DNA from: a virus
Reading direction: 5' to 3' (one strand)
Length of the DNA: 64,000 nt
IMG/VR virus record: IMGVR_UViG_3300020159_002019
Location: 1-64,000 of that record
In this document: one piece after another, positions 23,126-61,012 of the stretch
How positions within the stretch are numbered: position 1 is the stretch's first letter
Layout of the letters: each line of letters opens with the position of its first letter
Made by a program: the position numbers and the translations under genes
Notes under the pieces: generated by a model
Seen by the model: only the letters and a program-made list of their open reading frames with translations
Told to the model about the DNA's origin: nothing
Databases searched by the model: none

Positions 23126-23800
23126 TTATATTATATTATTTTTATTAAAGACAACTAAAAAATAGTCATCATTTTCTTTTATTGTATTCTTATAACTTAC
23201 ATTATAATCGTATGTGTTATAAGTATATTTAATACCCACATTGTCAAATTCTTTTTTATCCCATTCAACTTGTGTTGTATTCATTAATTCCCTTAATACA
23301 TTACCCTCACCTTTTATATTTTCAAATATTCTTCGGTTATTAAACATAGGACACCTAAATCTAATTTCGTTGTCATATACTAACATATTTTCAGCAATCT
23401 TTTCAATCTCAAACTGATCAGCATTTGTTCTTACAGGGTAATAGAACTCATTACTAAGTCCCATATCAATCGGTTCGCAACTAATGCTTTCTAACACACC
23501 AACCATCCCCCTTTTTTCCATTAACGTTCTCATTTTTTCAGGGTCATCAAATCCTTTTGATGATTTCCATTTTTGTTCTGCAAGGTGTAATACTTTATAA
23601 AAGTGTTGTCTTTGTTCTTCAGTTATTTTACCTTGATTTATCCCATTTAAAAACGGGCTTTTAATATTCATTTGGTGATGACCTGGTTGTGACTCATCAA
23701 CCGTATTTAATTGAGATTTCAAGATTTGTTTGTCGGCCTCATTTAAACCCATAAAGAATCCTGTTATCAAACCCATCATCTTTCTTTTTACATCATCCAT
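23126..23800 (-). CDS. Hypothetical protein
   Basis: 224 residues, no recognised family. N-terminal KMMGLITGFFMGLNEADKQ is a short hydrophobic helix; GKITEEQRQHFYKVLHLAEQKW is a helical segment of a type seen in virion proteins. It overlaps the next gene by 8 bases and sits among minus-strand mini-genes that resemble virion parts. Confidence 0.5.
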   Translation of the reverse strand: MDDVKRKMMGLITGFFMGLNEADKQILKSQLNTVDESQPGHHQMNIKSPFLNGINQGKITEEQRQHFYKVLHLAEQKWKSSKGFDDPEKMRTLMEKRGMVGVLESISCEPIDMGLSNEFYYPVRTNADQFEIEKIAENMLVYDNEIRFRCPMFNNRRIFENIKGEGNVLRELMNTTQVEWDKKEFDNVGIKYTYNTYDYNVSYKNTIKENDDYFLVVFNKNNII

Positions 23801-24239
23801 TTTTTAAACTTGTTTTAATTATTTTATTGTAATTTACAAAGTATTCCCTTTGATACCCTAAATACCTACCACTATCCGCTAATATTATCTTACCGTCTGT
23901 TTTTAATACTGGCGCTATTAACACTAATTTTTGAAACCAACTATCATTAAAAAAATTATCACATATAATATAATCAAAACTATAACCCACTAAACGTGAT
24001 TCGTGAATGGTTTGAATTATACAATTAGGATGTGTTATTCTTCTGTTAGTTTCTCTAACCATACCAGAATTCTCCACACCAAATAATATTGATTTATCGT
24101 TCGGTATTTTATTTATATAGTCAATCAATAAACTAGTTAAACCCCATTGTCTCGGTGTGAGAATGAGGTTAAACTTATTATCGTTAAAACTTTTAATAAT
24201 ACCAGTTTTAGGTAATATTATTTCTTTAATGCTTCTCAT
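23793..24239 (-). CDS. Mini-protein resembling a degenerate terminase ATPase
   Basis: 148 residues from the ATG at 24239, which overlaps the end of the HD gene; an upstream TTG at 24272 is judged spurious. NLILTPRQWGLTSLLIDYI resembles the large-terminase Walker A region (RQ-x-GKTT), but the P-loop lysine is replaced by leucine (GLTS). YSFDYIICDNFF stands where Walker B DE is expected, without the glutamate, and DGKIILADSGR resembles the coupling motif. If homologous it is catalytically dead and lacks the nuclease domain. Homology is inferred by eye. Confidence 0.45.
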   Translation of the reverse strand: MRSIKEIILPKTGIIKSFNDNKFNLILTPRQWGLTSLLIDYINKIPNDKSILFGVENSGMVRETNRRITHPNCIIQTIHESRLVGYSFDYIICDNFFNDSWFQKLVLIAPVLKTDGKIILADSGRYLGYQREYFVNYNKIIKTSLKNG

Positions 24240-24798
24240 TTGATTGTTTTTCTTCAAAAATAGCAAGTTCAATCGCTTGTTTTAATATTACCGATAAAAT
24301 ATCACTATACCATCTTGACTGTCTATCTTCATCAGTTTTTTCAAAGTTTATTATTGCTTGGAACTCAACATCCGATAATTTAACACCATATTGATTGCAA
24401 TAGAATAAACTCCTTTCACTTATTTTCATAGATGGTATTTCTTCATTAAACTTATAAAGAATACCTTTCTTCAATTCCCAATCAGTATTGTTTAATAAAT
24501 ATAACTTTATTTTACCGATTTGGTGTAAGAAACAAACTTTAATAAGTGACGCTTTTTCAACCCTAAGTTTTTCAGGTAATGTGTCATTTATTTTAACTGC
24601 GTATGCCGTCACTTTTAATATATGATCAACTAATCCACCAGGAAAACAATTATGTAATTGTAATGTGGTTGATGCGGGTGATGTCCATAAATCTTCACCT
24701 AAGAAATCATATAATTCATCAGTAATGAAATTACCGTAATTTTTAACACTATCAATAAATCGTGTTTTATTTTTTTCAATTTTTGCTCTTAAATCCAT
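24226..24798 (-). CDS. HD-superfamily phosphohydrolase-like protein
   Basis: 190 residues. LHNCFPGGLVDHILKV (H49, H59) and VCFLHQIGKIKLY (H92) match the HD fold pattern H...GGL-x-x-H...HD-x-GK found in YhaM-like nucleases and nucleotide phosphohydrolases. The aspartate of the HD pair is glutamine (HQ), so metal binding may be weakened. A role in nucleotide or RNA turnover would fit the early-gene context but is not shown. Confidence 0.6.
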   Translation of the reverse strand: MDLRAKIEKNKTRFIDSVKNYGNFITDELYDFLGEDLWTSPASTTLQLHNCFPGGLVDHILKVTAYAVKINDTLPEKLRVEKASLIKVCFLHQIGKIKLYLLNNTDWELKKGILYKFNEEIPSMKISERSLFYCNQYGVKLSDVEFQAIINFEKTDEDRQSRWYSDILSVILKQAIELAIFEEKQSNEKH

Positions 24799-24806
24799 AT
24801 TATTTT

Positions 24807-25061
24807 TTATTTATTAAATATAACTTTAATTTTCCAAAAAGGAAATGTTGGTTCTGATACAGTTCCGTATTGTAAATCTATGTAATTAAGATTACCAATA
24901 GGTGCCGCCATTGGTTGAACTGACACTATATCTTCACCTAATGTTCTAGCATTAACTCTTTGTATTGTTGGCATTATAACACCATTCAATAACGCCCCCC
25001 ATTGTTCGACAAAAGTTTTTTTAGTTTTTTTTCTACTAACGTATTGATTAATTGTTCTCAT
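24807..25061 (-). CDS. Mini-protein resembling the gp23 capsid N-terminal arm
   Basis: 84 residues. MPTIQRVNARTLGEDIVSV followed by QPMAAPIGNLNYIDLQYG aligns without gaps to the conserved gp23 segment of the form RR-x-x-P-x-L-I-A-x-E-x-x-GVQPM-x-x-P-x-G...YG. The rest of a capsid protein is absent, so it is either a truncated paralogue or a small protein built on that arm. The start MRT is shared with the next gene upstream. Function unknown. Confidence 0.5.
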   Translation of the reverse strand: MRTINQYVSRKKTKKTFVEQWGALLNGVIMPTIQRVNARTLGEDIVSVQPMAAPIGNLNYIDLQYGTVSEPTFPFWKIKVIFNK

Positions 25062-25419
25062 ATAATATTAAATATTCTTCAGTAAATAATGCACACATTT
25101 CCGCTTCCCAATCCATAGTGTTAAAAAATTTAATATCGTCAATAACCCCTCTTTTATCAAACATAAATCTTGGAAGTCTTTCCATAATATCTTTAATAAT
25201 TATTTTACTCTCGTGTTTAAATCTTGGTTTTATTTTATTTATTACTCTAAATATTATTGGGATAATCATACCATTATGCTCACTTATTTCAGATTCAAGT
25301 AATGTTTTAGCGGAATATTCTAAACAATAAGCCATCATTTTAGGGTTATTGGCGTATTCTAAAAATCCCATATTACCCCATTTTTTAATTAATAGATTAG
25401 AATTTTTTAATGTTCTCAT
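25048..25419 (-). CDS. Mini-protein with weak capsid N-terminal resemblance
   Basis: 123 residues. KKWGNMGFLEYANNPKMMAY, LEYSAKTLLESE and IIPIIFRVINKI follow the order of features in gp23-type N-termini (K-W-x-x-x-G-L-L..., L-E-N-Q-A-x-x-L-L, L-P-x-x-R-R-V), but the later QPM segment is missing. It shares the MRT start and the I-I-P-x-x-x-RV element with the 24807 gene, so the two may be paralogues. It overlaps both neighbours (14 and 4 bases). Confidence 0.45.
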   Translation of the reverse strand: MRTLKNSNLLIKKWGNMGFLEYANNPKMMAYCLEYSAKTLLESEISEHNGMIIPIIFRVINKIKPRFKHESKIIIKDIMERLPRFMFDKRGVIDDIKFFNTMDWEAEMCALFTEEYLILYENN

Positions 25420-26201
25420 AGATTTAATAACACCTCACTCTCATTTTCAATGTCATCTATTGATGTTATTTTATAATTCATAAAAACATAATCATTGTGA
25501 AGGTCGTGAAACTTTATACCTTTATCTTCAATCGTGTATTCTAAAAAGCCGTGATTATTTATTTTTTCCCCATGCGACTGCTGTACCAAACTACCCACCA
25601 TCACAACCGGAATACCTTTTTCAGTTTTCATAACACTTCTTTTATGGATGTCAGAGTTTAAAGCAACATCACAATCATTAAAATCCTCAATATCTAACCC
25701 ATCCTCAAATATAAAGTTTAAGTCAGTTGTAGAACCTCTTAAAGGTCCGTGTTGTAATCCAATATAACGCTTACCTTCTTCTCTAATTATTTCAGGTTTT
25801 GTATTACCTTCAGTTATACCCCAAACACACCAAACAATATTTTCATCTTCATAACACCCTGTTTTATTTAAGAACGTAATTTTATCATTACTTAAAGCAT
25901 TTAATATTGGTGTTAAAATATCTAACCTATCTAAGTTATTTAATAATAAATCGTGATTACCTAATGTAAGAACAACAGGTGCTATCTTGGTAAGTTCATT
26001 TAAGAAAACACAAGATATTTCAAATAATTCAGGGGTGGCTTGATTTTTGGAATGTGCCCAATCCCCACCAAAAACTATTCTATCGGGCTTAATTTCTTTT
26101 AATTTCGGTATGAATTGATTGAAAAAAACTTCTTTATATTCATCGTGGTATTTATATAAACGGATGTGTAAATCCCCAAAATACGCAATTTTATTTATCA
26201 T
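25416..26201 (-). CDS. Mre11/SbcD-like nuclease (T4 gp47-like)
   Basis: 261 residues. Calcineurin-type metallophosphoesterase with all motifs: FGDLHIR (D10, H12), FGGDWAHSKN (D47), TLGNHD (N82, H83), LQHGPL (H151) and NSDIHKR (D184, H186). In T4 gp47 pairs with the SMC-like ATPase gp46 to resect DNA ends for recombination-dependent replication; a gp46 gene is not in this window. Divergent from the + gene at 26248. Confidence 0.85.
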   Translation of the reverse strand: MINKIAYFGDLHIRLYKYHDEYKEVFFNQFIPKLKEIKPDRIVFGGDWAHSKNQATPELFEISCVFLNELTKIAPVVLTLGNHDLLLNNLDRLDILTPILNALSNDKITFLNKTGCYEDENIVWCVWGITEGNTKPEIIREEGKRYIGLQHGPLRGSTTDLNFIFEDGLDIEDFNDCDVALNSDIHKRSVMKTEKGIPVVMVGSLVQQSHGEKINNHGFLEYTIEDKGIKFHDLHNDYVFMNYKITSIDDIENESEVLLNL

Positions 26202-26247: not shown

Positions 26248-26547
26248 ATGAAAAAAGTAGTTATTAAGGAAAGTGAATTAATTTCATTAATCAAAAACAT
26301 AATAAATGAAGAAAGAAAAAGTGATTTAAAAACTTACTATGTGATTGAGGCAACTATCGGTAGAAAACAATTTTATTGGGGTGTATATAAAGATGGTTCT
26401 ACATTATTCATTCCAACTAAAAATTTTGGGGGATACGATTCTAAACCAAAATTTTATGAAAGTATAGATGACGCTGAAAAAACATTAAAAAAATTAAAAA
26501 AATATGTCCCAACATATACCTACGAAATAAAACCTTTTGGTAAATAA
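26248..26547 (+). CDS. Small candidate internal-head protein with capsid-targeting-like leader
   Basis: 99 residues. The leader ends LIKNIINE (I19-N20-E21), an (I/L)-x-E site as cut by T4 prohead protease. After it comes a small basic domain (YVIEATIGRKQFYWGVYKD..., about 75 residues). Such leaders mark T4 internal proteins that are packed in the head and injected. The leader type recurs in five other proteins here; function of the mature part unknown. Confidence 0.5.
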   Translation: MKKVVIKESELISLIKNIINEERKSDLKTYYVIEATIGRKQFYWGVYKDGSTLFIPTKNFGGYDSKPKFYESIDDAEKTLKKLKKYVPTYTYEIKPFGK

Positions 26548-26549
26548 TT

Positions 26550-27635
26550 ATGGAAATTACATTAGAAGAAAAATTAGCATTATATAAACAAGTTAAGGCT
26601 CGTTTAGGTGCTCCGATTAGAAAAATACAATTAACCGATGAGCAAATGGATGATTTATTACAAACAGCCATTGAGGATTATGCTCAATACACACAAAATT
26701 GGTTAATTGAGAATCAATGGAGTTCTCTTGAGGGTATAAACTTAGATGTTGCAGATATTACATTCGCTTTAACAACAAGAAGTTTAAATTATGAAACCTC
26801 TTTTACATACGCATACTCTAAAATTGTCGGATTACAAGCCAATGGTCCGTGGGAAATAAAAAAAGATTATGTTGTATTAAAAAGAAAACAACAAATATAT
26901 CAAATACCAGCAGGTAGAGAAATAAATGAAGTAATGTATGTTACGCCACCAACTATGAATCAGTCAGTTATTGATCCATTCTTAGGTGTATGGAACTTCC
27001 ATTTTGGCGCTGAATACATTGGTTTAGGTGCGTTATATGTAATGCCAGCATTTGACATTTTATTAAGGGCTGCCGACAGAAACTTAAAGAATAGAATTAT
27101 TAGAAGTGAATATGTTTATAAAGTAACGGCAGGTCCAAATGGTACAAAGTACTTACATTTATTACCAACTCCAGGTGGTAAATATGATTACTATCAAGGA
27201 AATATTGATGGGCATTATGTTTGGTATTGGTATTATGATGTAAACGCCGAAAGACAAAGGTGTATTGAACAAAATAAAGATATTGTTAAACTACCAAGTG
27301 ATACACCTCTAAGTAAATTACAATGGTCGGATTTAAATGATCCTGCTAAATATTGGGTTAGAAGATATTTTACAGCGTTATGTAAAGAAACATTAGCTTA
27401 TGTAAGAGGAACATTTAGTGGTAATTTAGGGGCTCCTGGTTCTGAAATTAAGATGGATTATGAAATGTTTGCAAGTTCAGCCAAAGAAGAAAAAGATGCT
27501 TTAATAACGGAGTTGAAAGAGTATTTGGAAAGAATAAGTCAGCCTAAGATGTTAGAAAGAAAAGCCGGTGAAGCCGAAAACTTAAATACAATATTAAAAT
27601 ACAGACCATTCCAGACACCTTATTTATTAATATAA
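26550..27635 (+). CDS. Virion structural protein, neck (gp13)-like
   Basis: 361 residues. Starts MEITLEEKLALYKQVKARLG, then IQLTDEQMDDLLQTAIEDYAQYT, the helix pair seen at the start of T4 gp13-like neck proteins (L-T-x-x-Q-x-x-x-A-I-x-D-x-x-x-x-Y). Rich in Tyr/Trp in the middle (NIDGHYVWYWYYD). No transmembrane or signal segments. It follows the 26248 gene by two bases. The gp13 assignment rests on the N-terminal pattern and late-gene context. Confidence 0.5.
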   Translation: MEITLEEKLALYKQVKARLGAPIRKIQLTDEQMDDLLQTAIEDYAQYTQNWLIENQWSSLEGINLDVADITFALTTRSLNYETSFTYAYSKIVGLQANGPWEIKKDYVVLKRKQQIYQIPAGREINEVMYVTPPTMNQSVIDPFLGVWNFHFGAEYIGLGALYVMPAFDILLRAADRNLKNRIIRSEYVYKVTAGPNGTKYLHLLPTPGGKYDYYQGNIDGHYVWYWYYDVNAERQRCIEQNKDIVKLPSDTPLSKLQWSDLNDPAKYWVRRYFTALCKETLAYVRGTFSGNLGAPGSEIKMDYEMFASSAKEEKDALITELKEYLERISQPKMLERKAGEAENLNTILKYRPFQTPYLLI

Positions 27636-27682: not shown

Positions 27683-28000
27683 ATGAAAACAATTAAATTA
27701 ACAGAACAAAATTTAACCAATATCGTTAAGAGGGTTATTAAAGAAAATGGTGGGGCGAGGATAGGGAAAAAATATTCATCTGAAGATGCAAATTACGAGT
27801 ATTATGACAGAAAAATTGATGAGATGAAAGAATCGTTAATAAATACTAAATTAAAAGATATATCTAATTTTAATATGTATGAATATATAACTGATGATGA
27901 TATTGAAATCATTGATTCGGATCCCGATTTAGAGGTTTTATCATCCGAAATAGATGATATTGTACGTGTTATTGAACATATTAGGGAACTGTATTATTAG
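27683..28000 (+). CDS. Small candidate internal-head protein with capsid-targeting-like leader
   Basis: 105 residues. The leader runs to IVKRVIKE (I19-K20-E21), an (I/L)-x-E cleavage-like site at the same position as in the 26248 protein. The remaining ~84 residues are acidic and helical (IRELYY end). Start and stop are tight against the neighbours: its TAG overlaps the GTG/ATG of the next gene. Confidence 0.5.
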   Translation: MKTIKLTEQNLTNIVKRVIKENGGARIGKKYSSEDANYEYYDRKIDEMKESLINTKLKDISNFNMYEYITDDDIEIIDSDPDLEVLSSEIDDIVRVIEHIRELYY

Positions 28001-29951: not shown

Positions 29952-32900
29952 ATGGCACAAGGAAGAATATTAAAAGATTTAACAGGTATAAACAGCGGAC
30001 AAGTAAAACCGTCTGAAGATTTATTATTACTATATAGTATATCAGGTAATACATCAAATAAAATAACTATTGATGATTTTAAAACGGCGATTAATTTTAA
30101 CGGTTATACTGCAAATACAATCAGTAATAACACATTTTATCAATACACATCTGACACTAAAAACATATTAGATGAAAAAATAGATATTAATTTTTTCTCG
30201 AATTATACAGGTAATACCATAACACAAGGAACTGGTAGTTATTCAACCGTAAGAAATGGTAATAATAATTTCGCAATCGGTAATTGTTCTACTATTATTG
30301 GTGGTGTTAATAACTACACGGATAAAACTAATTCTGTTATTTTAGGTAGTAATTTAACTGCCACAACAACAAATACGACATTTGTAGAATCTTTAAATGT
30401 TAAAGATTTTATTTACGATAATACGGGATGCGCTGGTTTAACAGGACAATTTATAGTTGCAACTGCTGATGGGTTTGCTTGGTGTAATGCTGGTGGTGTC
30501 GGTAATTGTATTTTAGTTGGTGGGGGACCTGGTTTATTAGGCGCTCAAGGTTCGTCATTTATTGGTGGTGGTGATAATAATACAATAGCTGAAGATAATT
30601 ATAATGTTATTGGTGGGGGACAATCAAATACCTTAACAGGTGGTTTCAATTCTATCTCTTCAGGACAACAAAATTTGGTGTCGGAAGCGGGTCGTTATTC
30701 ATCAATAAGTGGTGGTTATTGTAATACATTATCAGGTTATTATTCAGTAATCGGTGGCGGTAGAAATAATAACGTCAATGGTAAAGGTGGTGAAGGATTT
30801 CAAGTAATCAATGGTGGTTGTAATAATTGTTTAGGGGTAAATAGGGGTTCATTTATTGGTGGTGGTTGTCAAAATACTGTTTCAGGTAATTTATCGTTAA
30901 TTGTTGGTGGTGAAAATAATTTAATTGGTGAAAATATTAATGACTCAAATAATAGTGTTTGCTCAATAATCGGTGGTGGTGAGTTTAATACTATTACAAA
31001 TGGTAATTATTCAGGTATTTTTGCCGGTTCAAATAATTGTGTTGGTGGAAACTATTCATTAGTTAGTGGTGGTTTTTATAACACCGCAATTGGTAATGTC
31101 TCAACCGTAATTGGGGGTTGTTCTAATTGTGCGTCTGGGTCATATTCATTAGTTGGTGGGTTTAATAATACGGCATCAGGAGCATATTCAGTTATTTTAG
31201 GTAATAATAATAATGATAGTGGTTGTAGTGGTGTTGTAATGTTAGGTTTTGTTGGTGACGCCGATAGAGATAATGCAGTTTTTATAAATAACACTAGCAT
31301 TCGTGGTTATTTGTATGATAGTAATAATACATCAGGAACAGGAAATCAAATTTTAAGTGTTGATAGAAACTCAGGTTATTTATCTTGGGTAGATATAGAC
31401 ACCCCTTTAGGTTCTACATCAAGATTATTAAACAGTAAATTAAGTATAAGTGGTGGAACTATTTATGGTAATTTAGTTGTTAATGGTAATTTACAATTTG
31501 CGGGGACAGCAACAACAGTTAATAGAGCTTCATTATTAATATCAAACCCAATAATTGTTTTAGCTTCAGGAACAACAACACCAACAAAAGACGCAGGTTT
31601 CTTAATTGATAGGGGTTTGACAGGTGATACTGTATTTATATGGAGTGAAACAAATCAAGAGTTTAGAATAGGTTATACAAATAGCATATATACAGCATCA
31701 ACAATAAACATAACGAATTATAGTAATTTAAGATTAAACCAATTAGCCGCTAACTATATATCAGATATAAATGGAAACACAGGAACAACTAACTATATAT
31801 TAGGTTCAACTTCTAATGGTATTGTTTGGATTCCAAATACCGGTAATACAAATAATACATTAACAGGTTTAAATAGTTTTGTAGGTGCGGGTAGTGGTAA
31901 TACATCTTATGGTTCTTATTCATTTGTAGGTAATGGTATAGGTAATACCGCTTATGGTAGTAATTCATTTGTGGGTGGTGGTAATTTCAATACCGCTGGT
32001 GATACACCAAATGGTTGGGAAGTCGTAGTAAATGGACAATTTAATAAGGCTTTAGGTGATTATTCATTTGTGGGTAATGGTTTTAGGAATATAGTATCAG
32101 GTGCAACATCATTTATTGGTAATGGTTGTAATAACTTAATATCGGCCTCTACATCATCTTTTATTGGTGGTGGTTTAAGTAATACTATAAGAAGTTGTAA
32201 TTCAACAATAGGTGGCGGACAAAATAATACAATAAAATTTAATACAGGAACAACGTCAAATACTATCGCTGGTGGTAGTTGTAATACAATTGATGGTTAT
32301 TGTAGTTTTATAGGTGGTGGTTATTGGAACACTGTTACTTTAGCGAATTACACAACAATAGGTGGTGGTAGACAAAATTACGCTGTTGGTTCATATACAT
32401 CCGTAAGTGGTGGTTATAAAAACTCGGCATCGGCAAATTACTCATTCATTGGTGGTGGTAAAACAAATAGAACATCAGGACAATTTTCTTCTGTTGTTGG
32501 TGGGTTATCAAACACATCTTCAGGTTATTGTTCATTTATTGGTGGTGGTGTTGGTAATATATCGTCAGGAAGTATGTCAGGTATAATATCTGGCTCAGGT
32601 AATACAGCAACATCACAAAATTCATTTATTGGTAGTGGTTTATGTAATGTAGTAAATGGTATATCATCAAATATTGTTGGTGGTCGTTTAAATAGTGTTA
32701 AAATGAATAGTTCATCAGTTGTTGGTGGTTGTGGAAATATTGTAAGTGCAACAACGTCATCAATTTTAGGTGGTGAAGGAAACGTAGTTAATGTACCGAA
32801 TTCATTTATAGGTGGCGGTATGATGAACGTAGCCGGTTCTGTCAATGAATACGATATTTTAGGTATAAATAATTTAGACATTACAACATCAGCATCGTCA

Positions 32901-35900
32901 AGCAATTTTAGTGTTGGTGATGAAATTATTGTATATAATCAAAATGATTTAAAGTCATATAAAACATACATAAGTAATATTAATGTTTTTGGTGGAAATA
33001 CTATAATAACTGTCACATTATCTGTTGGTGGTAATTCTTTCGGTGGTAAGATATATGAATTATTACCATTAAATACCTCAACAAATTACTCAGTATCAAT
33101 AGGAAGTGGTTGGTTTAATAAGGTTAAATCCAAATATTCAACAATATCTAATGGGTATAATAATAATATATCTTCCGAATCTTCATTTATAGGAAGTGGT
33201 AATGGTAATATACTATTTGAGTCAGCACAATTCTCATTTATTGGTGGTGGTAATAATAATAAATCTTGTTGTAGTGCAACTTTTATAGGTGGTGGTTGTG
33301 GGAATATAATAACCGGTAACACATCAGTAATTGTAGGTGGTCGTTCTAACATTATAAAAAACGTGGACTCTTTCATTGGTGGTGGATGTTGTAATTACAC
33401 AACGGCTTGTTTTGGTTTCATTGGTGGTGGATCTAATAATAAATCTGACGCATCTAGTTCTTTTATAGGTGGTGGTAATTTTAATTTAGTTAAAGGATCT
33501 AACGATGTAGTTGTTGGTGGTTGTGGAAATACATCATCAGGTGGGTATTCTATTATTGGTGGTGGTTCATCAAATTGTATTGGTAATCTATTGTCATCAG
33601 TTTTTGGCGGTGCGGCAAATACATCATTAGCGGATTATTCAACCATAGGTGGTGGATGTTGTAATTACACAACGGCTTGTTGTGGTTTTATAGGTGGTGG
33701 TTCATCAAATTGTGCGTCATCAAATAATACAGTTGTCGCCGGTGGTAATGGTAATACATCATCAGGCCCAGCATCGGCAATTTTAGGTGGTAATGTAAAT
33801 AAGTCAACAGGACAATATTCAGCAATTGTAAATGGTTTAACTAATTTATCTTGTTTTAATTTTACATTTGTAGGTAATGGTGTATCAAACTCAGGAACAA
33901 CATTTAACGCAACCGTTGTTAATGGTTGTGAAAATATATCATCAGGTAATTTTTCTTTTATAGGTAATGGTTGTTGTAATATAGCTCGTAGTAATTACGG
34001 TTCGGTTCTTAACGGTTTTCGTAATAATAATGGAGGGTTATATTCATCTATTCTTGGTGGTTGTTCTAATACAATGACTCACAGTAACTCATTTATATTG
34101 GGATCTAACCTAACAAGTGATAAAGATAATACGACTTATGTTGAAAACTTGGACGTTAAAACGAATATTTATGATAGCACAAATAGTGCTGGTAATATAG
34201 GACAAGTATTATCTTCAACATCAACAGGGGTTAAATGGGTTGATATGACAGGTTCAACAAATAGTATTTTTAGTTTCACAGCAACACCTGTAATACAACA
34301 ATATTATACAATCCCATCAAACTTAACGACAAGTGTTGTTGGATCGTCATACAGAATATCTAATGGTAATATAGTTCAAACAACAGCAACTTATTCAACA
34401 ATTAGTGGTGGTAGAGGTAATACCGTTAATAATTCATATTCAACAATTGCTGGTGGGTGGAATAATCAATCCGATTCTTGCGCATCAATTGGTGGTGGGT
34501 TTGGGAACTCTGCTGGAATATGCGCTGTCGTAGGTGGTGGTATAACAAATATATCTAGTGGGGCTGCGAGTGTAATAGGTGGTGGTTTAAGTAATAACGG
34601 AAAATGTTCTTTTTCAACAATCGCTGGTGGTTCTAATAATACATCTTGCGGTGAATCTTCATCAATTGGAGGTGGTTATTTAAATTGTGTTGGTAATAAC
34701 GCAACATTTACTTCAATCGGAGGTGGTTGTAAAAATTCGGCAACAGGTGCAGGGACAACAATTGGTGGTGGGTGTTCAAATCAAACACGTGGTTTTTTAG
34801 ATGTAATTGCCGGTGGTGTTAATAATACAACATCGGGTGGATATACTACAATAAGTGGTGGTAAATCAAATTGTGGTGGGGCTGTATATTCATCAATAGT
34901 AGGTGGATTTAAAAATACAACATTAGGTGATTATGGATTTATCGGTGGTGGTCAATGTAATTATCTTAAAGGAACTACTAATAACACAACATATCCATCA
35001 GTAATCGGTGGTGGTAATCAAAATACAACTTTAACAGACAATACAGTAATCGGTGGTGGATTCTTTAATATAATAAGTGGATCATCGTCAAACAATTCAT
35101 TTATAGGTGGTGGAACACAAAATAAAATATGTGGTTTAGTTGTCGGATCATTTATAGGGGCTGGACAAAATAATACGATATATAGTAGAGCTTATAGTTC
35201 ATCAATTATTGGTGGAAGTAATAATTATACAATTTATCCGGAAACACATATTTTAGGTTCAAATATTACCGCCACAAGATCGGGTACAACATACGTTGAA
35301 TGTTTAGACATCAAAACACATTTATATGATTACACAAATAGTAAAGGAACTGATGGTCAAGTATTGACTTCTACTGAAAATGGTGTTGTTTGGTCAGATA
35401 CTTCAGGTGGTGGTAGCAGTGCTGTAATTATATTAGGGACAGGAACCGGTTCTTCGGTAAGGAAGGATAATAGTAATTTTACGATGGGTAACTACTCGAC
35501 AGTAAGTGGTGGATATTGTAATTGTGTATCGTCAAATGGAGCTTTTTCAACCATAGGTGGTGGCTGTTGTAATACTGTTCTACAATTGGGTTCAACCGTA
35601 AGTGGTGGATATTGTAATGTAATTAATGGTAGCTGTGGTTTTATAGGTGGTGGTTGTAAAAATAATAATTCAAGTCTATTATCAGCAATAGGTGGTGGTA
35701 TTTGTAACACAATTTTAGCTCATTGTTCATTTGTTGGTGGTGGTTGTAAAAATACAATATTTGCCGGATATGAACAATCACAATACTACTCAACCATAGG
35801 TGGTGGTTATAATAATGTTTTAACCTCTAATTATTCAGGTATTTTAGGTGGATGTGGAAATACGTTAAATTATAATAAATCTTTTATTGTTGGTAGTGAT

Positions 35901-36029
35901 ATAACAGCGGATAGAATTTGTGCTACGTTCGTAAATAACTTATCAATTATGAATATCCCAACATCAGCAACAGGATTACCTTCAGGATCTATTTATAAAG
36001 ACGCCAATGGTTTCTTAAAAATTGTTTAA
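29952..36029 (+). CDS. Giant repeat fibre/adhesin protein, 2,025 residues
   Basis: Likely tail fibre. An N-terminal ~80 residues (ILKDLTGINSGQVKPSEDL) probably attaches to the virion. Most of the rest is several dozen copies of a ~14-16-residue repeat of the form S-F-I-G-G-G-x-x-N-x-x-x-G-x-Y, reminiscent of YadA/Hep_Hag heads of trimeric adhesins. Blocks of repeats are closed by a cassette of the form (L/V)GS(N/D)(L/I)TA...V(E)xLD(V/I)K...YDxTNxxGxxGQxLxSxxxGxxWxD, near residues ~131, ~427, ~1382, ~1768 and, shortened, ~1980. A non-repeat ~190-residue domain at ~435-630 has GDTVFIWSETNQEFRIGYT; another insert is at ~960-1045. It ends GLPSGSIYKDANGFLKIV. A trimer is inferred from the adhesin-like repeats. 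Confidence 0.8.
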   Translation: MAQGRILKDLTGINSGQVKPSEDLLLLYSISGNTSNKITIDDFKTAINFNGYTANTISNNTFYQYTSDTKNILDEKIDINFFSNYTGNTITQGTGSYSTVRNGNNNFAIGNCSTIIGGVNNYTDKTNSVILGSNLTATTTNTTFVESLNVKDFIYDNTGCAGLTGQFIVATADGFAWCNAGGVGNCILVGGGPGLLGAQGSSFIGGGDNNTIAEDNYNVIGGGQSNTLTGGFNSISSGQQNLVSEAGRYSSISGGYCNTLSGYYSVIGGGRNNNVNGKGGEGFQVINGGCNNCLGVNRGSFIGGGCQNTVSGNLSLIVGGENNLIGENINDSNNSVCSIIGGGEFNTITNGNYSGIFAGSNNCVGGNYSLVSGGFYNTAIGNVSTVIGGCSNCASGSYSLVGGFNNTASGAYSVILGNNNNDSGCSGVVMLGFVGDADRDNAVFINNTSIRGYLYDSNNTSGTGNQILSVDRNSGYLSWVDIDTPLGSTSRLLNSKLSISGGTIYGNLVVNGNLQFAGTATTVNRASLLISNPIIVLASGTTTPTKDAGFLIDRGLTGDTVFIWSETNQEFRIGYTNSIYTASTINITNYSNLRLNQLAANYISDINGNTGTTNYILGSTSNGIVWIPNTGNTNNTLTGLNSFVGAGSGNTSYGSYSFVGNGIGNTAYGSNSFVGGGNFNTAGDTPNGWEVVVNGQFNKALGDYSFVGNGFRNIVSGATSFIGNGCNNLISASTSSFIGGGLSNTIRSCNSTIGGGQNNTIKFNTGTTSNTIAGGSCNTIDGYCSFIGGGYWNTVTLANYTTIGGGRQNYAVGSYTSVSGGYKNSASANYSFIGGGKTNRTSGQFSSVVGGLSNTSSGYCSFIGGGVGNISSGSMSGIISGSGNTATSQNSFIGSGLCNVVNGISSNIVGGRLNSVKMNSSSVVGGCGNIVSATTSSILGGEGNVVNVPNSFIGGGMMNVAGSVNEYDILGINNLDITTSASSSNFSVGDEIIVYNQNDLKSYKTYISNINVFGGNTIITVTLSVGGNSFGGKIYELLPLNTSTNYSVSIGSGWFNKVKSKYSTISNGYNNNISSESSFIGSGNGNILFESAQFSFIGGGNNNKSCCSATFIGGGCGNIITGNTSVIVGGRSNIIKNVDSFIGGGCCNYTTACFGFIGGGSNNKSDASSSFIGGGNFNLVKGSNDVVVGGCGNTSSGGYSIIGGGSSNCIGNLLSSVFGGAANTSLADYSTIGGGCCNYTTACCGFIGGGSSNCASSNNTVVAGGNGNTSSGPASAILGGNVNKSTGQYSAIVNGLTNLSCFNFTFVGNGVSNSGTTFNATVVNGCENISSGNFSFIGNGCCNIARSNYGSVLNGFRNNNGGLYSSILGGCSNTMTHSNSFILGSNLTSDKDNTTYVENLDVKTNIYDSTNSAGNIGQVLSSTSTGVKWVDMTGSTNSIFSFTATPVIQQYYTIPSNLTTSVVGSSYRISNGNIVQTTATYSTISGGRGNTVNNSYSTIAGGWNNQSDSCASIGGGFGNSAGICAVVGGGITNISSGAASVIGGGLSNNGKCSFSTIAGGSNNTSCGESSSIGGGYLNCVGNNATFTSIGGGCKNSATGAGTTIGGGCSNQTRGFLDVIAGGVNNTTSGGYTTISGGKSNCGGAVYSSIVGGFKNTTLGDYGFIGGGQCNYLKGTTNNTTYPSVIGGGNQNTTLTDNTVIGGGFFNIISGSSSNNSFIGGGTQNKICGLVVGSFIGAGQNNTIYSRAYSSSIIGGSNNYTIYPETHILGSNITATRSGTTYVECLDIKTHLYDYTNSKGTDGQVLTSTENGVVWSDTSGGGSSAVIILGTGTGSSVRKDNSNFTMGNYSTVSGGYCNCVSSNGAFSTIGGGCCNTVLQLGSTVSGGYCNVINGSCGFIGGGCKNNNSSLLSAIGGGICNTILAHCSFVGGGCKNTIFAGYEQSQYYSTIGGGYNNVLTSNYSGILGGCGNTLNYNKSFIVGSDITADRICATFVNNLSIMNIPTSATGLPSGSIYKDANGFLKIV
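33378..33411 (+). repeat. 34-base exact direct repeat, copy 1
   Basis: Identical to 33648-33681, 270 bases downstream, starting GGTGGTGGATGTTG. It encodes GGGCCNYTTAC in both places, inside the fibre repeats, and points to a recent internal duplication or unequal recombination. Confidence 0.9.
33648..33681 (+). repeat. 34-base exact direct repeat, copy 2
   Basis: Identical to 33378-33411. The flanking bases differ on both sides. Confidence 0.9.
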
Positions 36030-40771: not shown

Positions 40772-41104
40772 TTATTTAGTTAAAGTGAAGTGATAAATAT
40801 TTTTACCTACAACTAAATCAGTCATAAGACCTTTATTTATTTCACTAAATTCAATTGTTTTTTTGTGTTTCTTGAATAGAATGATTCCGTATTCTATTTT
40901 TTTACCATTTAATAGGAAGTTATTTTCGTCATAAAAATTTGACATCCTATTTAGTTGTTCTATTAATTCGTGTTGTTTGGTTTCAACTCTAACACCATTT
41001 TTAACAACCCTTAAAGAGTGTATAGGTATTATCACAATTTCTGTTTTGGATAGTTTAAATTCAACATAACCAATTTCTTTTTTAATATCCTTGATGGATT
41101 TCAT
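40772..41104 (-). CDS. Hypothetical protein
   Basis: 110 residues, beta-rich, no recognised family. Seen: KKEIGYVEFKLSKTEIVIIP, QLNRMSNFYDENNFLLNGKK and LVVGKNIYHFTL. Divergent from the + gene at 41172; the 67-base spacer holds TATTTATT at 41124. Confidence 0.5.
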   Translation of the reverse strand: MKSIKDIKKEIGYVEFKLSKTEIVIIPIHSLRVVKNGVRVETKQHELIEQLNRMSNFYDENNFLLNGKKIEYGIILFKKHKKTIEFSEINKGLMTDLVVGKNIYHFTLTK

Positions 41105-44876: not shown

Positions 44877-46760
44877 ATGAAAAAAATCCTATCGTTTTTG
44901 GCATTATTATGCCTATCTGTTATTACGTTCGGGCAAACATGCCCAACACCTAACGGAAACTCAATTATTATTAAACCAAATTACACGGTTTCATCTTCAA
45001 TAGCTAACCAAACAGATGTAAAACTTTGCTATAATAATACAACCACAAGTAAAATTACAGCTCTACAATTTAAGATTAGTTATGACACTATTGCTTTTAC
45101 AGAGCCATCGGTTAGATTAGTTATTCCTGATAGTTCAGATTCTTATTTACAGTTCTATGTAAATAAAGGAACAATTACTATATCAACAGTATATGACGGA
45201 TCAAATCTTAATTATACTTACCCTTCAGGTGAGTTATTTAATATAAACTTCAAACATTCAAATCCAAACACATTTCAATATTTAACAGGGATTACATCGT
45301 TGGGGTTTGATAATCAATACCCAACAATAGCATCAACTAATTTAGGTAAAGATACAACATTAAATAAATTTAACGGTGGTGGTATATTTATTAGACCTTC
45401 TATCAATTTCACAGGAACATTTAAAAACGTAACTGGTTCATTCACTAAAAACCTATTAGTAGGTTTATGGAAACAACCTAAATCAGGTGGTAATTGGACA
45501 TTAGTTAATGTTGATACTACTGACTTAAATGGTAAATTCGCATTTAGTCCTATCGTAGATACTACATATTGGACTTGTAAAATAGAAGTTAAAGGTGATA
45601 CGTTATCTTTAGGTAATGTGGTAACAACAGCAGATGCTCAAAAAGTTAATAGATTTGTATTAGGTATTGAAAATCCAAAAAGTTTTGATTTCCATTCATC
45701 AGATCCAAATAATTCAGGTAATATATCTATTTCAGACGTATATACAATCTTTAATAGAATTGCAGGTAGATTTAGTAGTTTTACAACACCTGACGTTAGA
45801 TTTTTTACAGATATTCAATATAACACAATTACGACAGATAGTTTAACTAATCATTCATTAGATATACCAGGAAGTGCTAATTATTCATATACAATTGTAA
45901 CAGGTGTTGATTCAATTACAGTTTATGTATTAGCAACAGGTGACGTAAATGAAACAGGTTTCCGTATGGCTAGATTAGTTCCAATTAAAATAACTAATCC
46001 ATTAAACGCACCTAATTTCATTATAGATCAAACAACTGATTACTACGCTTCATTAAATGAAATGGAAATTAATTTACCGACATTAAAAATTGAAGAGGGT
46101 AATTTAGTTAATATTCCGGTAACAGTTTTAACTAACGGACAAGAATTAGGGGCTGTGCAATTAGCAATGAAATATGATACAGATTTATTAGAGTTTAGAG
46201 GTGTAAAAACCCTAAACTCAACCGCTAAATGGATGTCATTTACAAATCCTAACGATGGTGTAGTTGAATGGGGTGGTGTAGATATGAGCGAACAAAATAA
46301 AGTTAAAGATGGTAATGATGTAGTTGTAATGCAATTTTACGCTAAAAAACCTAAAGATGATTGGAATGGTTCTCCATTATATGTGACTCGTAAATTTGTA
46401 GGTAATTCAACAGCTAAAGATTTAAGTATTAAACCTACTGATGGTAGAGTGGAAGTTCTTAAAACATCTCCAATTGTATCAAGGTTAAATGGTAGTTTAA
46501 ATATATTAGTTTATCCAAACCCTTCAACAGGTATAGTATCAGTTCAATTTAACGTACCTGATAACAATAATACTATGGTTTATTTTATAGATATGATTGG
46601 ACATAAAGTGGCTGAAATAACTAATGGTAAAATGCCAAAAGGTGAATACAGATACACTGCAAATTTAACAGATTTACCAGTTAGTGCTTATACAGCGGTA
46701 GTTGAGTGTGATGGTAAAATAATTGGTAGCGCGAAACTAATAAACGGCGTATTTATGTAG
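44877..46760 (+). CDS. Exported cohesin/dockerin-like protein with T9SS sorting domain
   Basis: 627 residues. Signal peptide MKKILSFLALLCLSVITFGQ. Residues ~30-140 and ~400-495 look like cohesin/cell-wall-type beta domains (LQFKISYDTIAF; VNIPVTVLTN, AVQLAMKYDTDLLEF). Residues ~245-298 have dockerin-like pairs (VTTADAQKVNRFVLG, NISISDVYTIFNRIAG). The C-terminal ~85 residues are a type IX secretion sorting domain, with VYPNPSTGIVSVQF and PKGEYRYTANLTDLPVSAY. The host T9SS would send it to the cell surface. Such a protein in a phage is unusual and marks a Bacteroidota host. Confidence 0.8.
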   Translation: MKKILSFLALLCLSVITFGQTCPTPNGNSIIIKPNYTVSSSIANQTDVKLCYNNTTTSKITALQFKISYDTIAFTEPSVRLVIPDSSDSYLQFYVNKGTITISTVYDGSNLNYTYPSGELFNINFKHSNPNTFQYLTGITSLGFDNQYPTIASTNLGKDTTLNKFNGGGIFIRPSINFTGTFKNVTGSFTKNLLVGLWKQPKSGGNWTLVNVDTTDLNGKFAFSPIVDTTYWTCKIEVKGDTLSLGNVVTTADAQKVNRFVLGIENPKSFDFHSSDPNNSGNISISDVYTIFNRIAGRFSSFTTPDVRFFTDIQYNTITTDSLTNHSLDIPGSANYSYTIVTGVDSITVYVLATGDVNETGFRMARLVPIKITNPLNAPNFIIDQTTDYYASLNEMEINLPTLKIEEGNLVNIPVTVLTNGQELGAVQLAMKYDTDLLEFRGVKTLNSTAKWMSFTNPNDGVVEWGGVDMSEQNKVKDGNDVVVMQFYAKKPKDDWNGSPLYVTRKFVGNSTAKDLSIKPTDGRVEVLKTSPIVSRLNGSLNILVYPNPSTGIVSVQFNVPDNNNTMVYFIDMIGHKVAEITNGKMPKGEYRYTANLTDLPVSAYTAVVECDGKIIGSAKLINGVFM

Positions 46761-57587: not shown

Positions 57588-60182
57588 ATGAGTAAAATTT
57601 TAATCGAAGAAATCAATAGAAATAGAAAAGTGATGGGTATTCAACCCTTAACAGAATCACAAGAATTAGATTTAATATTAGAAGATATTAACAAAGAAGT
57701 ACTAAATGAAGGTTGGTGGGAAACAACTAAATATGCATTATCTAAATTAGGTAGATATAAAGCTAATGGTAAAATCTTGGGTAAAACACAAGAAACAGCT
57801 AAATCTGAAAGTAAGGTTAGGGATTTACTAATGAAAAAAGGTAATGAAATAATCCAACAATTAGATAAAGACATTCGTGGTATAGATCCTGAATTTCCAA
57901 ATAACAAATCAAGAGTATCATTTTTAAGGTGTGTGATATTGGTTTCACAAGCTTATGATTCTATTGTGGCGGCAACTAAATTACCTCCAACAGATCCTAA
58001 GTTTTTACCTATTGATGCCGCCAATCTTATTATTAATGATTTAAGGGAATACGTTAAAAAGTTTTTAGATACTGATTTAAGTGCGGCTTTTAGTATAATG
58101 GATAGTGAAATTATTGATGGTAATTTAATAACTGAAGATGAATTATTAGATGAGGCTGAACCAAGAAGCGCTAAATTATCACAAGCGGGTAAAACAGGTA
58201 AATTCGGCTCAACTAGAATGGATACACTTAAATCAAATAAATTACCTTTATTATTGGCTGGTTTAGGTGTTAGTTTAGGTGGTTTAAGTTGGTTAATGGA
58301 TTCAGTTTGGGGGCAAAGATTCATTGAAGTTCCAACAGAAGAAGAAAAAGTTAAATATTTAAAAAATACTATTGGGACAATACAACCAGGTCAAGGTTTA
58401 ACTCAATGGTTAAATATGTTTGAAGGTACTGGATTAAATCCAAATTCAACCCCACAACAATTTTTAGATGCCGTTACAAAAGTTGGTAATGGTGATTTAG
58501 ATAAAGGTATTGAGGCTTTAACAGAACAAGGTGGTATATTTAGAAACCCTGATGCGGCTAAACAAGTATTAGAACAAATTAAAAATAATCCTGATGGTTA
58601 TAAAAACTTAGGTGAAATGTTTAAAGGGACTTGGGCTGGAACAGGAAAATCTATTGGTGATACATTAGTAACGGTTCCAGGTGCTTCGGTTGTGGAAACA
58701 ATAGCAAAAAAAGTTGCTGTACCTGTATTAAAGAAAGTGTTAGTTAAAACTGCCGCTGGTTCAGCATCTCCAATTATAGGTGCTTTAGGTATTGGTTTGA
58801 TGGCGGCTGGTGCTCTTGTAAAGGGTATGAGAATTAAAGGACAGAAACAATCAAGAGCTAAAACATTAAATGACTTATATCAATCATTGGTAAATTTAGA
58901 ACCAACAGAAGAAAACCCATCATCAGGTATTATTGAAACAGCTGGTGAAGGTGACGCAACAGGTGGTGATCAATCTAAATTGGGCGGTGCGACAGGTGTA
59001 AATATTGAATGTGTAAAAAATTTAATTAAGGCAACGATTCAGTTAAATGAAATGATTAATAAAGGTGTGGTTAAAAATCCGACTAATAAAAATGCTGCTG
59101 GTAGTAAAGGTAATATTAAAGTAGGTCAAGAATATTTATATAATAATAAACCTGTTTTAGTTCTTAATTTAAAAAATCCTGTAAGTAAAGGTTCTGATAA
59201 GAAATGGTTAACAAAAGATGACATTATTGGTAAAGATACTTTAGGTAATAATATGGTTTCTGTTGTATTTAAAAACAAATTAAATGATTATAGTGATATG
59301 AACGCCAGTACGGCTGTCGATATTTCTAAATTAAAACCTATGACTGGTGGTAATAAACCACAACCAACACAACAAAAACAAGGTAGATTCCCTAATTCTA
59401 AGCCTTTAACTCAATCACAATTAAAATCTAGTATTGATTCAGTTGTTCATAATATACTTAGAGAGTTTATTGAATTACAAGAAGCGGGCGCTGCTTGGAA
59501 TACGGCAAATGCTGCTAACGTAACTCAAACAAACGCACCTAAAGGTGGAGCTTTACAAGCCGGAGAAACAGATGCTGTGAATGGTTGGAATAAAGTCGTA
59601 AATGCATTTAAACAAGCCAATGTATCTGCATTAGTTAAACCTATGGAATTATTGGTTAATACTTCAATTTCACAAGGTAAAGATACATTAAAGGCGGCTC
59701 AAGAGGATATGATGCAAATAGGTAATTTAATTATTCAGAATAGAGCAACTATTGGTAAAGTAATTCCATTTGAACAATTAGTAAAAGAAGCTGAAGACCC
59801 TAAAATAACTAGAAGTAGGAATGTTCAAGCAATAGCTAAATCGATATCATTAGTAAGTAGAATTATTATGGCGTATAAAGAAGATATTGGTTTAACAGGT
59901 GCTTATGGTAGTGCTAAAGCCCCTATGAATTTATTTATTCAAGCTTATGATTGTGTAGTTAAAGGTGGTGGTAAATCAGGGGGACAAACAACTCAAGGAG
60001 GGAATCAACCATCACAAGGGGGAAATAACCAAGCAAATCAAGTTGGGGGTAATCAACCTGAAGGAAATGAAGAGGGTGGGACTGAACAATCTGGAGGGGA
60101 AGAAACCTCAAATCAAAAACAAACCGGTGTTGGATTCGATACAAAAGTTAGTGGTTCTATTAGAGGTGATTACTTTAGATAA
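57588..60182 (+). CDS. Large candidate injected/internal virion protein with capsid-targeting-like leader
   Basis: 864 residues. The leader ends VLNEGWWE (L39-N40-E41 then G), an (L/I)-x-E site with the E-G-aromatic pattern of two other proteins. Two hydrophobic stretches: LPLLLAGLGVSLGGLSWLM (~219-237) and SPIIGALGIGLMAAGALVK (~390-408). The C-terminal ~100 residues are Gly/Gln/Glu-rich and low complexity. Cleavage and membrane segments would fit an internal protein that leaves the head with the DNA; this is inference. No known domain. Confidence 0.5.
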   Translation: MSKILIEEINRNRKVMGIQPLTESQELDLILEDINKEVLNEGWWETTKYALSKLGRYKANGKILGKTQETAKSESKVRDLLMKKGNEIIQQLDKDIRGIDPEFPNNKSRVSFLRCVILVSQAYDSIVAATKLPPTDPKFLPIDAANLIINDLREYVKKFLDTDLSAAFSIMDSEIIDGNLITEDELLDEAEPRSAKLSQAGKTGKFGSTRMDTLKSNKLPLLLAGLGVSLGGLSWLMDSVWGQRFIEVPTEEEKVKYLKNTIGTIQPGQGLTQWLNMFEGTGLNPNSTPQQFLDAVTKVGNGDLDKGIEALTEQGGIFRNPDAAKQVLEQIKNNPDGYKNLGEMFKGTWAGTGKSIGDTLVTVPGASVVETIAKKVAVPVLKKVLVKTAAGSASPIIGALGIGLMAAGALVKGMRIKGQKQSRAKTLNDLYQSLVNLEPTEENPSSGIIETAGEGDATGGDQSKLGGATGVNIECVKNLIKATIQLNEMINKGVVKNPTNKNAAGSKGNIKVGQEYLYNNKPVLVLNLKNPVSKGSDKKWLTKDDIIGKDTLGNNMVSVVFKNKLNDYSDMNASTAVDISKLKPMTGGNKPQPTQQKQGRFPNSKPLTQSQLKSSIDSVVHNILREFIELQEAGAAWNTANAANVTQTNAPKGGALQAGETDAVNGWNKVVNAFKQANVSALVKPMELLVNTSISQGKDTLKAAQEDMMQIGNLIIQNRATIGKVIPFEQLVKEAEDPKITRSRNVQAIAKSISLVSRIIMAYKEDIGLTGAYGSAKAPMNLFIQAYDCVVKGGGKSGGQTTQGGNQPSQGGNNQANQVGGNQPEGNEEGGTEQSGGEETSNQKQTGVGFDTKVSGSIRGDYFR

Positions 60183-60196
60183 AAAATATTAAATTT

Positions 60197-61012
60197 ATGA
60201 AAATTAAAATAACAGAAGAACAATATAATACCTTATTAAATGAAGGTTTTTTTGATAGATTAGGTGCTAAAATATCTGCCGGAACTAAACAAATTAAAGC
60301 TGTTGGGTCAAACATTAAAAATATCGTGACAGGTGATGGTAAAAGAACAAGTTATCAAGGGATAAAAAATTTAGGTGATGAAACTAAATTAAAAAGTATT
60401 GGATTATCAGTATATAATTTTATTGACAACTCAATAAAAAAAATTGTAGAAAATTACCCAAGTAGAAACGTGGATGTTTCTGAATATTTATATCTTTTAG
60501 CTGATTTTACAGATCAAAATACTAAGGTTTTAAACCTAAATACTAAATATATTAAAATACCTAAAGCTCAATACTATACAGGTAAAAATGGGGATAACCG
60601 AGAAAATCTTAAACTAAAAAATGAAGGGATATCAATAAATAAAAATATTGAAAATACGATAAAAGATTTGGAAAAATTATTTTCTTCTAGTGGTAGGAAT
60701 AATAATGATTTAATTGATTTAGCTTATAAATATATGTATTTCTTAAAAGAATTTTTAGGTGCAAATGAAAAAATGTTGAAATTAAATGAGAGTAGTTTAT
60801 CTAAAGATAGTAATTTATTTTTTAATAAAAAAACAAATCAAACACAACCAACTCAAGCGACGCCTAATCAACCACAACCAACTCAAGGGGTTCAAAATAA
60901 ACAAACACCTAATCAAACACAACCAACTCAAACTAATTATCCTGGTAGAACTGAAGAGTTGAGACAAAAAATGCAATCTAGATTAAACCCTAACCCTTAT
61001 TACGGTAAATAA
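60197..61012 (+). CDS. Candidate internal-head protein with capsid-targeting-like leader
   Basis: 271 residues. The start MKIKITEEQYNTLLNEGFFD has an L14-N15-E16 site followed by G-F-F-D, close to LNEGWWE of the previous protein. Residues ~20-205 are helical and charged; the C-terminal ~55 residues are a QPTQ-type low-complexity tract (NQTQPTQ). It begins 14 bases after the previous stop. Confidence 0.5.
   Translation: MKIKITEEQYNTLLNEGFFDRLGAKISAGTKQIKAVGSNIKNIVTGDGKRTSYQGIKNLGDETKLKSIGLSVYNFIDNSIKKIVENYPSRNVDVSEYLYLLADFTDQNTKVLNLNTKYIKIPKAQYYTGKNGDNRENLKLKNEGISINKNIENTIKDLEKLFSSSGRNNNDLIDLAYKYMYFLKEFLGANEKMLKLNESSLSKDSNLFFNKKTNQTQPTQATPNQPQPTQGVQNKQTPNQTQPTQTNYPGRTEELRQKMQSRLNPNPYYGK

Follow-up and report, generated by a model that had tools for sequence, protein, structure and literature searches.

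Two small overlapping genes in a virus genome fragment look like pieces of gp23, the T4-type major capsid protein, which raises the questions of whether they really originate from the capsid gene and what a phage might do with them. The window analysed comprises the opening 64 kb of a virus record of 109,290 bases, itself a genome fragment. Both minus-strand open reading frames reported by the sequence-only reading, here termed mini-genes A123 and A84, are present at their positions (Table 1) and overlap by 14 bases. Their operon begins with an SbcD-like gene; a gene for an HD-domain-like protein and other small genes come later. The pair had been described as far from the late block, which holds for the capsid genes, which precede the start of the window in a near relative, but not for late-type neck and tail genes, which start at 26550 on the opposite strand.

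Table 1. Mini-genes, their leaders and associated features (window coordinates unless another source is named; aa, amino acids)
Feature	Coordinates	Strand	Description
A123	25048..25419	-	123 aa; leader MRTLKNS and two gp23 segments, N-terminal (about gp23 27-86) and spine-helix (about 403-427)
A123 leader	25399..25419	-	MRTLKNS; its start codon shares bases with the stop codon of the preceding gene
A84	24807..25061	-	84 aa; leader MRTINQY, Gol-region gp23 segment (corresponding to about 94-136 of T4 gp23; basis Pfam, PHROG, profile and T4 mapping) and conserved tail TFPFWKIKVIF
A84 leader codons	25041..25061	-	ATGAGAACAATTAATCAATAC (MRTINQY)
A148	23793..24239	-	Leader MRSIKEI and degenerate region likely from the terminase large-subunit ATPase
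SbcD-like metallophosphoesterase	25416..26201	-	First gene of the operon
HD-domain-like protein	24226..24798	-	Flanking control for dN/dS, outside the mini-gene family
D110	40772..41104	-	Leader-only member (MKSIKDI...); payload without recognisable source
B81	95773-96018 (record, outside window)		gp23 spine-helix segment; Pfam Gp23 E=3.4e-14
B84	96018-96272 (record, outside window)		gp23 C-terminal segment; profile E=5e-11
B74	96269-96493 (record, outside window)		Likely portal piece, and tail-protein C-terminus
Motif ACTATTTAT, examples	Before 27683, 29952, 53191 and 57588; G007, before TerL; G018, before gp22 and tube		Probable late promoter
Second leader class	26248-26547, 27683-28000, 57588-60182, 60197-61012; G018 24683-25027		Leader ending I/L-x-E

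That the two proteins are pieces of gp23 was borne out by profile searches and by comparison with the intact gp23 of the near relative. Residues 26-70 of A84 aligned with positions 61-105 of the profile for the PHROG 138 major head protein (E=5e-5), and A84 also matched Pfam PF07068 Gp23 (E=1.1e-5, 25.4 bits with a cut-off of 24.4) and, at E=6e-9, a gp23 profile built from relatives, which combined sequences of distant relatives with the phage group's own gp23. The alignment ran for about 40 residues without gaps and scored 107 points, the maximum for shuffled A84 being 51. The gap-free arm noted earlier was recovered, although its spacings had been slightly off, with 13 residues rather than 18 between R35 and QPM and eight rather than nine between G56 and YG. 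Searches of the PHROG and Pfam libraries with A123 returned no match. Against the relatives' gp23 profile A123 gave E=8e-4 in two collinear segments (23-90 and 379-400), the second scoring 33.6 versus a maximum of 21.1 in 60 column shuffles. The protein contains two gp23 segments, which goes beyond the original claim.

Two further genes at a second locus of the record, B81 and B84, also carry gp23 segments, and B81 matched the gp23 profile at E=1e-21 to 1e-24. The mini-genes ranked directly below true gp23 in the gp23 profile search, and profile-profile comparison with gp23 gave 99.6% for B81 and 97.4% for both B84 and A84, while A123 appeared as two separate segments. Chance similarity was ruled out by the profile E-values and the shuffle controls. 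Homology to gp23 was found for A84, B81 and B84, and more weakly for A123. Judged by these comparisons, A84, B81 and B84 certainly derive from gp23 and A123 very likely does, as a weaker but real composite. Family-invariant residues are retained in the better-matching mini-genes. Unlike T4-type gp23 proteins of about 400-680 aa, the mini-proteins are 52-128 aa long, lack the A domain and the insertion, have an added leader and accompany an intact gp23. None has the complete HK97 fold with A and P domains and E-loop; the payloads span just gp23 about 27-104, 379-440 and 552-614, and hence they are not capsid proteins.

When all 109,290 bases of the record were searched with the gp23 family, no full-length gp23 turned up; the sole matches were A84 and a short one at 95.8 kb. 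Pieces in N- to C-terminal order over two loci of a 109-kb record without a whole copy could be expected if gp23 were encoded piecewise and assembled from its parts. They make up less than half of gp23, however, and lack the A domain, and in the near relative G018 an intact gp23 of 623 aa lies in a gp21-gp22-gp23 block of the usual kind, sheath and tube genes being present too. For the phage group a split or trans-assembled capsid gene is refuted by this intact gp23, and we give it next to no probability. Near relatives were used to extend the genome, most segments having 80-96% DNA identity; G018 overlaps the window start through its DNA polymerase gene (94% identical) and G007 has intact TerL and portal gp20, so intact gp23, portal and terminase are known from relatives in the group and not from the fragmentary record itself. 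Because the late block of the near relative holds an intact gp23 beyond the window start, the mini-genes are additional to it. This group has a divided head block, with terminase-portal apart from gp21-gp22-gp23 (G007 12.7-17.1 kb, G018 23.3-29.1 kb); the two are adjacent in more distant relatives.

At locus B the genes B81, B84 and B74 overlap in succession and start with MRTIxQY or MRSLKNL. B74 aligned with the portal protein over 28 residues only (score 33.0, maximum 21.9 in 60 column shuffles), and its C-terminus resembles that of the tail protein at 29952-36029 (GLTEGSVWRDGEGILRIV versus GLPSGSIYKDANGFLKIV). This tail protein has 2025 aa and many degenerate repeats rich in glycine and asparagine. 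A148 resembles TerL (gp17) in having Walker A, LRGY-like and Walker B regions in the same order, as RQWGLTS, LVGY and DNFF, the last replacing DEAA. It is about a quarter as long, lacks the nuclease domain and the Walker B catalytic acid, and, with a similar Walker A region but Walker B changed from DE to DN, does not carry the ATPase motifs. Its hhalign comparison with TerL covered 121 columns (score 29.5, maximum 25.1 in 60 column shuffles), and among the matches listed in a search of 50,697 phage records all were terminases, at E=0.2. An AlphaFold model of A148 (pLDDT 35) was too poor for a fold search. These alignments indicate a likely origin of A148 in terminase and of B74 in portal, and the family as assembled here takes gp23 in four members (A123, A84, B81 and B84), portal plus a tail C-terminus in B74 and the terminase ATPase in A148. 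For three other genes with the leader described below (C116, C110 and D110), comparison with the head proteins revealed no related payload. The two ends of a 130-aa protein in G007 (65099-65491; L203:5099-5491) match the tail tube family (profile positions 15-43 and 107-162, E=3e-9), and the middle is absent; this protein has no leader and is a possible virion-protein miniature.

The members are joined by a leader with the consensus M-[RK]-[ST]-[ILV]-x-x-[YIL]. Eleven of about 255 genes, counted over the mostly non-overlapping part of the group genome, begin M-[RK]-[ST]-[ILV]-x-x-[YILF], compared with a mean of 1.4 and a maximum of 6 in 5,000 residue permutations, and ten of these genes encode small proteins of at most 160 aa. 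The MRTINQY of A84 recurs in B81 with different codons; across A84, B81 and B84 the peptide MRTI[NK]QY is kept while the codons differ synonymously. Leaders are mostly more conserved than payloads.

The reading frames of the mini-genes are intact in three to four related phages at dS of up to 0.76 for the gp23 pieces. Homologues of A123 were found in G001 (127 aa) and G009 (128 aa), and of A84 as well, in the search of related phages that had been proposed from the sequence. The probability of intact frames under neutrality was 0.014 for A84, 0.0013 for A123 and 0.0007 for A148; for B84 taken alone, neutrality was not rejected. Values of dN/dS were mostly 0.3-0.6 (range 0.2-0.95) for the mini-genes versus 0.03-0.09 for the operon neighbours. 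The mini-genes are thus a real, conserved, fast-evolving and dispersed family that evolves several-fold faster than its neighbours, the pattern expected of host-interaction genes; relaxed constraint could be behind part of it.

A motif, ACTATTTAT, was located upstream of genes 17 times in sense and twice in antisense orientation, mainly before structural genes (terminase, scaffold, tube, gp25 and fibre), and is probably the late promoter of the phage group. It was present upstream of none of the mini-genes, nor was it found upstream of the SbcD-like gene at the start of the operon, and its absence from the mini-genes points to early or middle expression.

Gene fragments of this kind occur sporadically outside the group. 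The more distant phage G032 has two overlapping frames with gp23 segments near kinase and thymidylate synthase genes, one of 88 aa with the spine-helix segment (E=9e-4) and one of 52 aa with the Gol segment (E=8e-7), which begins MKSLNI; a search for relatives of the 52-aa gene found no others. Sinorhizobium phage Phosso, which is isolated and complete, has an intact gp23 at 246.8 kb together with separate genes for the Gol segment (182.3 kb, E=1e-8) and the C-terminal segment (113.9 kb, E=2.5e-6, hypothetical protein XYS97328.1). The Phosso genes differ from those in the record in that no MRTI-type leader was seen and the C-terminal segment of gp23 is fused to a C-terminal module that neighbouring small genes seem to share. 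Adjacent small proteins at 113159-114916 (L268:660-2417) seemingly share a C-terminal stretch ending L-F-K-L-x-W/F, and the gp23 piece lies on one of them as if fragments were grafted onto a common module. Other records searched with the gp23 family, including 14 from T4-type or jumbo phages (T4 and immuto among them), gave no convincing fragment gene. A 78-aa frame in G025 was marginal (E=0.006), extra matches in G003 and G041 were noise, and those in Vibrio phage vB_VmeM-32 were a broken gp23 and a vertex-type paralogue. From these matches gp23 fragment genes appear to be sporadic but recurrent, with the same two or three segments reused. Stand-alone capsid-fragment genes in phages were not described in the literature searched, in which coverage of subscription journals was thin.

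By alignment A84 maps onto T4 gp23 about 94-136, a segment that corresponds approximately to the T4 Gol region. The Gol segment is the most conserved part of gp23 and the main recognisable part of A84, the 52-aa gene of G032 and the Phosso gene. In T4 it sits inside gp23 as the target of Lit/EF-Tu exclusion, whereas here it is carried by separate genes, whose products may bind EF-Tu. When 168 gp23 proteins were ranked by resemblance, the group's own gp23 came third for B81, seventh for B84 and 162nd for A84. At the site where A84 and most other gp23 proteins have QPMxxPxG, the gp23 of the group has QALNMPIG, so either A84 was taken from another lineage or the group's gp23 was altered later. 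The T4 Gol peptide is an activator, not a blocker, of Lit (PMC3014915), and a plain copy would therefore be harmful unless altered.

Our leading, though tentative, interpretation is that the mini-genes are domesticated mimics of head proteins that probably compete for the partners of their parents, host sensors being the likeliest of these. Bacterial immunity is known to be triggered by head proteins, CapRel and Lit by the capsid protein and Avs systems by terminase and portal (PMC9712102, PMC12931631), which makes host sensors the leading candidate targets. The mini-proteins would be made from early or middle operons, ahead of the late proteins, and as soluble mimics of head-protein surfaces would occupy the normal binders of gp23, portal and terminase. 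The likeliest targets would be host factors or immune sensors for capsid, portal and terminase (Lit with EF-Tu, CapRel-type, Avs-type), which would be blunted before the genuine head proteins appear. We infer the timing, the partner binding and the decoy role from the sequences. A broader programme of large T4-type phages, in which fragments of head proteins, repeatedly derived from the same gp23 segments, are given a common leader and expressed early to disarm sensing, is a more doubtful extension. Searches against PADLOC defence families gave no meaningful match (one hit, E=0.024, was meaningless).

Bacterial innate immunity often senses capsid, portal or terminase, and how phages escape it while their essential proteins stay the same is a standing problem. 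Intact parents accompanied by leader-tagged pieces would be a concrete and testable answer, or else a new form of head-assembly control, and the family is a clear case of gene birth in which structural-protein fragments were grafted onto a common start tag. As Phosso is isolated and complete and has the same kind of gene, the idea is open to bench testing.

The main rival to sensor decoys, rather unlikely in our estimate, is that the mini-proteins are assembly regulators or dominant-negative inhibitors that bind gp23, portal or terminase of their own or a co-infecting phage and delay or poison assembly and packaging. The gp23 pieces (strand, spine helix and C-terminal strands) are predicted to pack against the remaining gp23 in the HK97 fold, an argument that rests on the secondary structure of a low-confidence AlphaFold model of gp23 (20 sequences, pLDDT 50, suited to secondary structure at most). 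A84, being nearer to the gp23 of other lineages than to its own, would suit an inhibitor of rivals; B81 and B84 are near the gp23 of their own lineage, so not all of the mini-genes would be aimed at rivals, and it is harder to see such a regulator in a terminase piece without most of the protein. Less probable again, and third in our ranking, is packaging in the head as internal proteins. The T4 internal proteins IPI-IPIII likewise pair a short conserved leader with highly diverse, fast-changing payloads (PMC3012670), and positions 4 and 7 of their capsid targeting sequence, which matter for targeting (PMC9026906), are hydrophobic in the mini-gene leader as well, except for S at position 7 in A123 of G000. 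The gp21 protease motif [IL]-x-E at positions 8-10, however, occurs solely in B81 of three genomes (G000, G007 and G008), the late motif is missing, and the payloads, unlike those of T4, derive from head proteins. A second and distinct leader class (MKxIxLTExxLxxIVxxVIxE and similar), with several members behind the late motif and one within the head-gene block, would suit targeting better and looks like the capsid targeting sequence of many internal head proteins.

Recombination remnants had also been suggested by the sequence-only reading, that is, pieces of structural genes stranded behind early promoters and decaying. Homing-endonuclease-like and IS605-like genes near or inside locus B would fit such debris, as would the fast evolution. 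Conservation of the frames nevertheless makes this improbable, more so than either of the functional rivals, as order and leaders are also unchanged in the related phages, intact frames are improbable under neutrality, and the same gp23 segments recur in other lineages. One relative has an IS200/605 TnpB-like gene (L182:8193-9380) between B81 and B84, and both mini-genes are intact there.

Elsewhere in the window, about 20 kb (2276-22520) are occupied by sugar-nucleotide, aminotransferase and glycosyltransferase genes on a single strand. The phage protein encoded at 44877-46760, behind the late motif, opens with a signal-like sequence and has two domain matches, one cohesin-like (Pfam E=2e-6) and one to the C-terminal sorting domain of type IX secretion (E=3.7e-5, marginally under the cut-off). 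These features point to a host among the Bacteroidota and to secretion of the protein.
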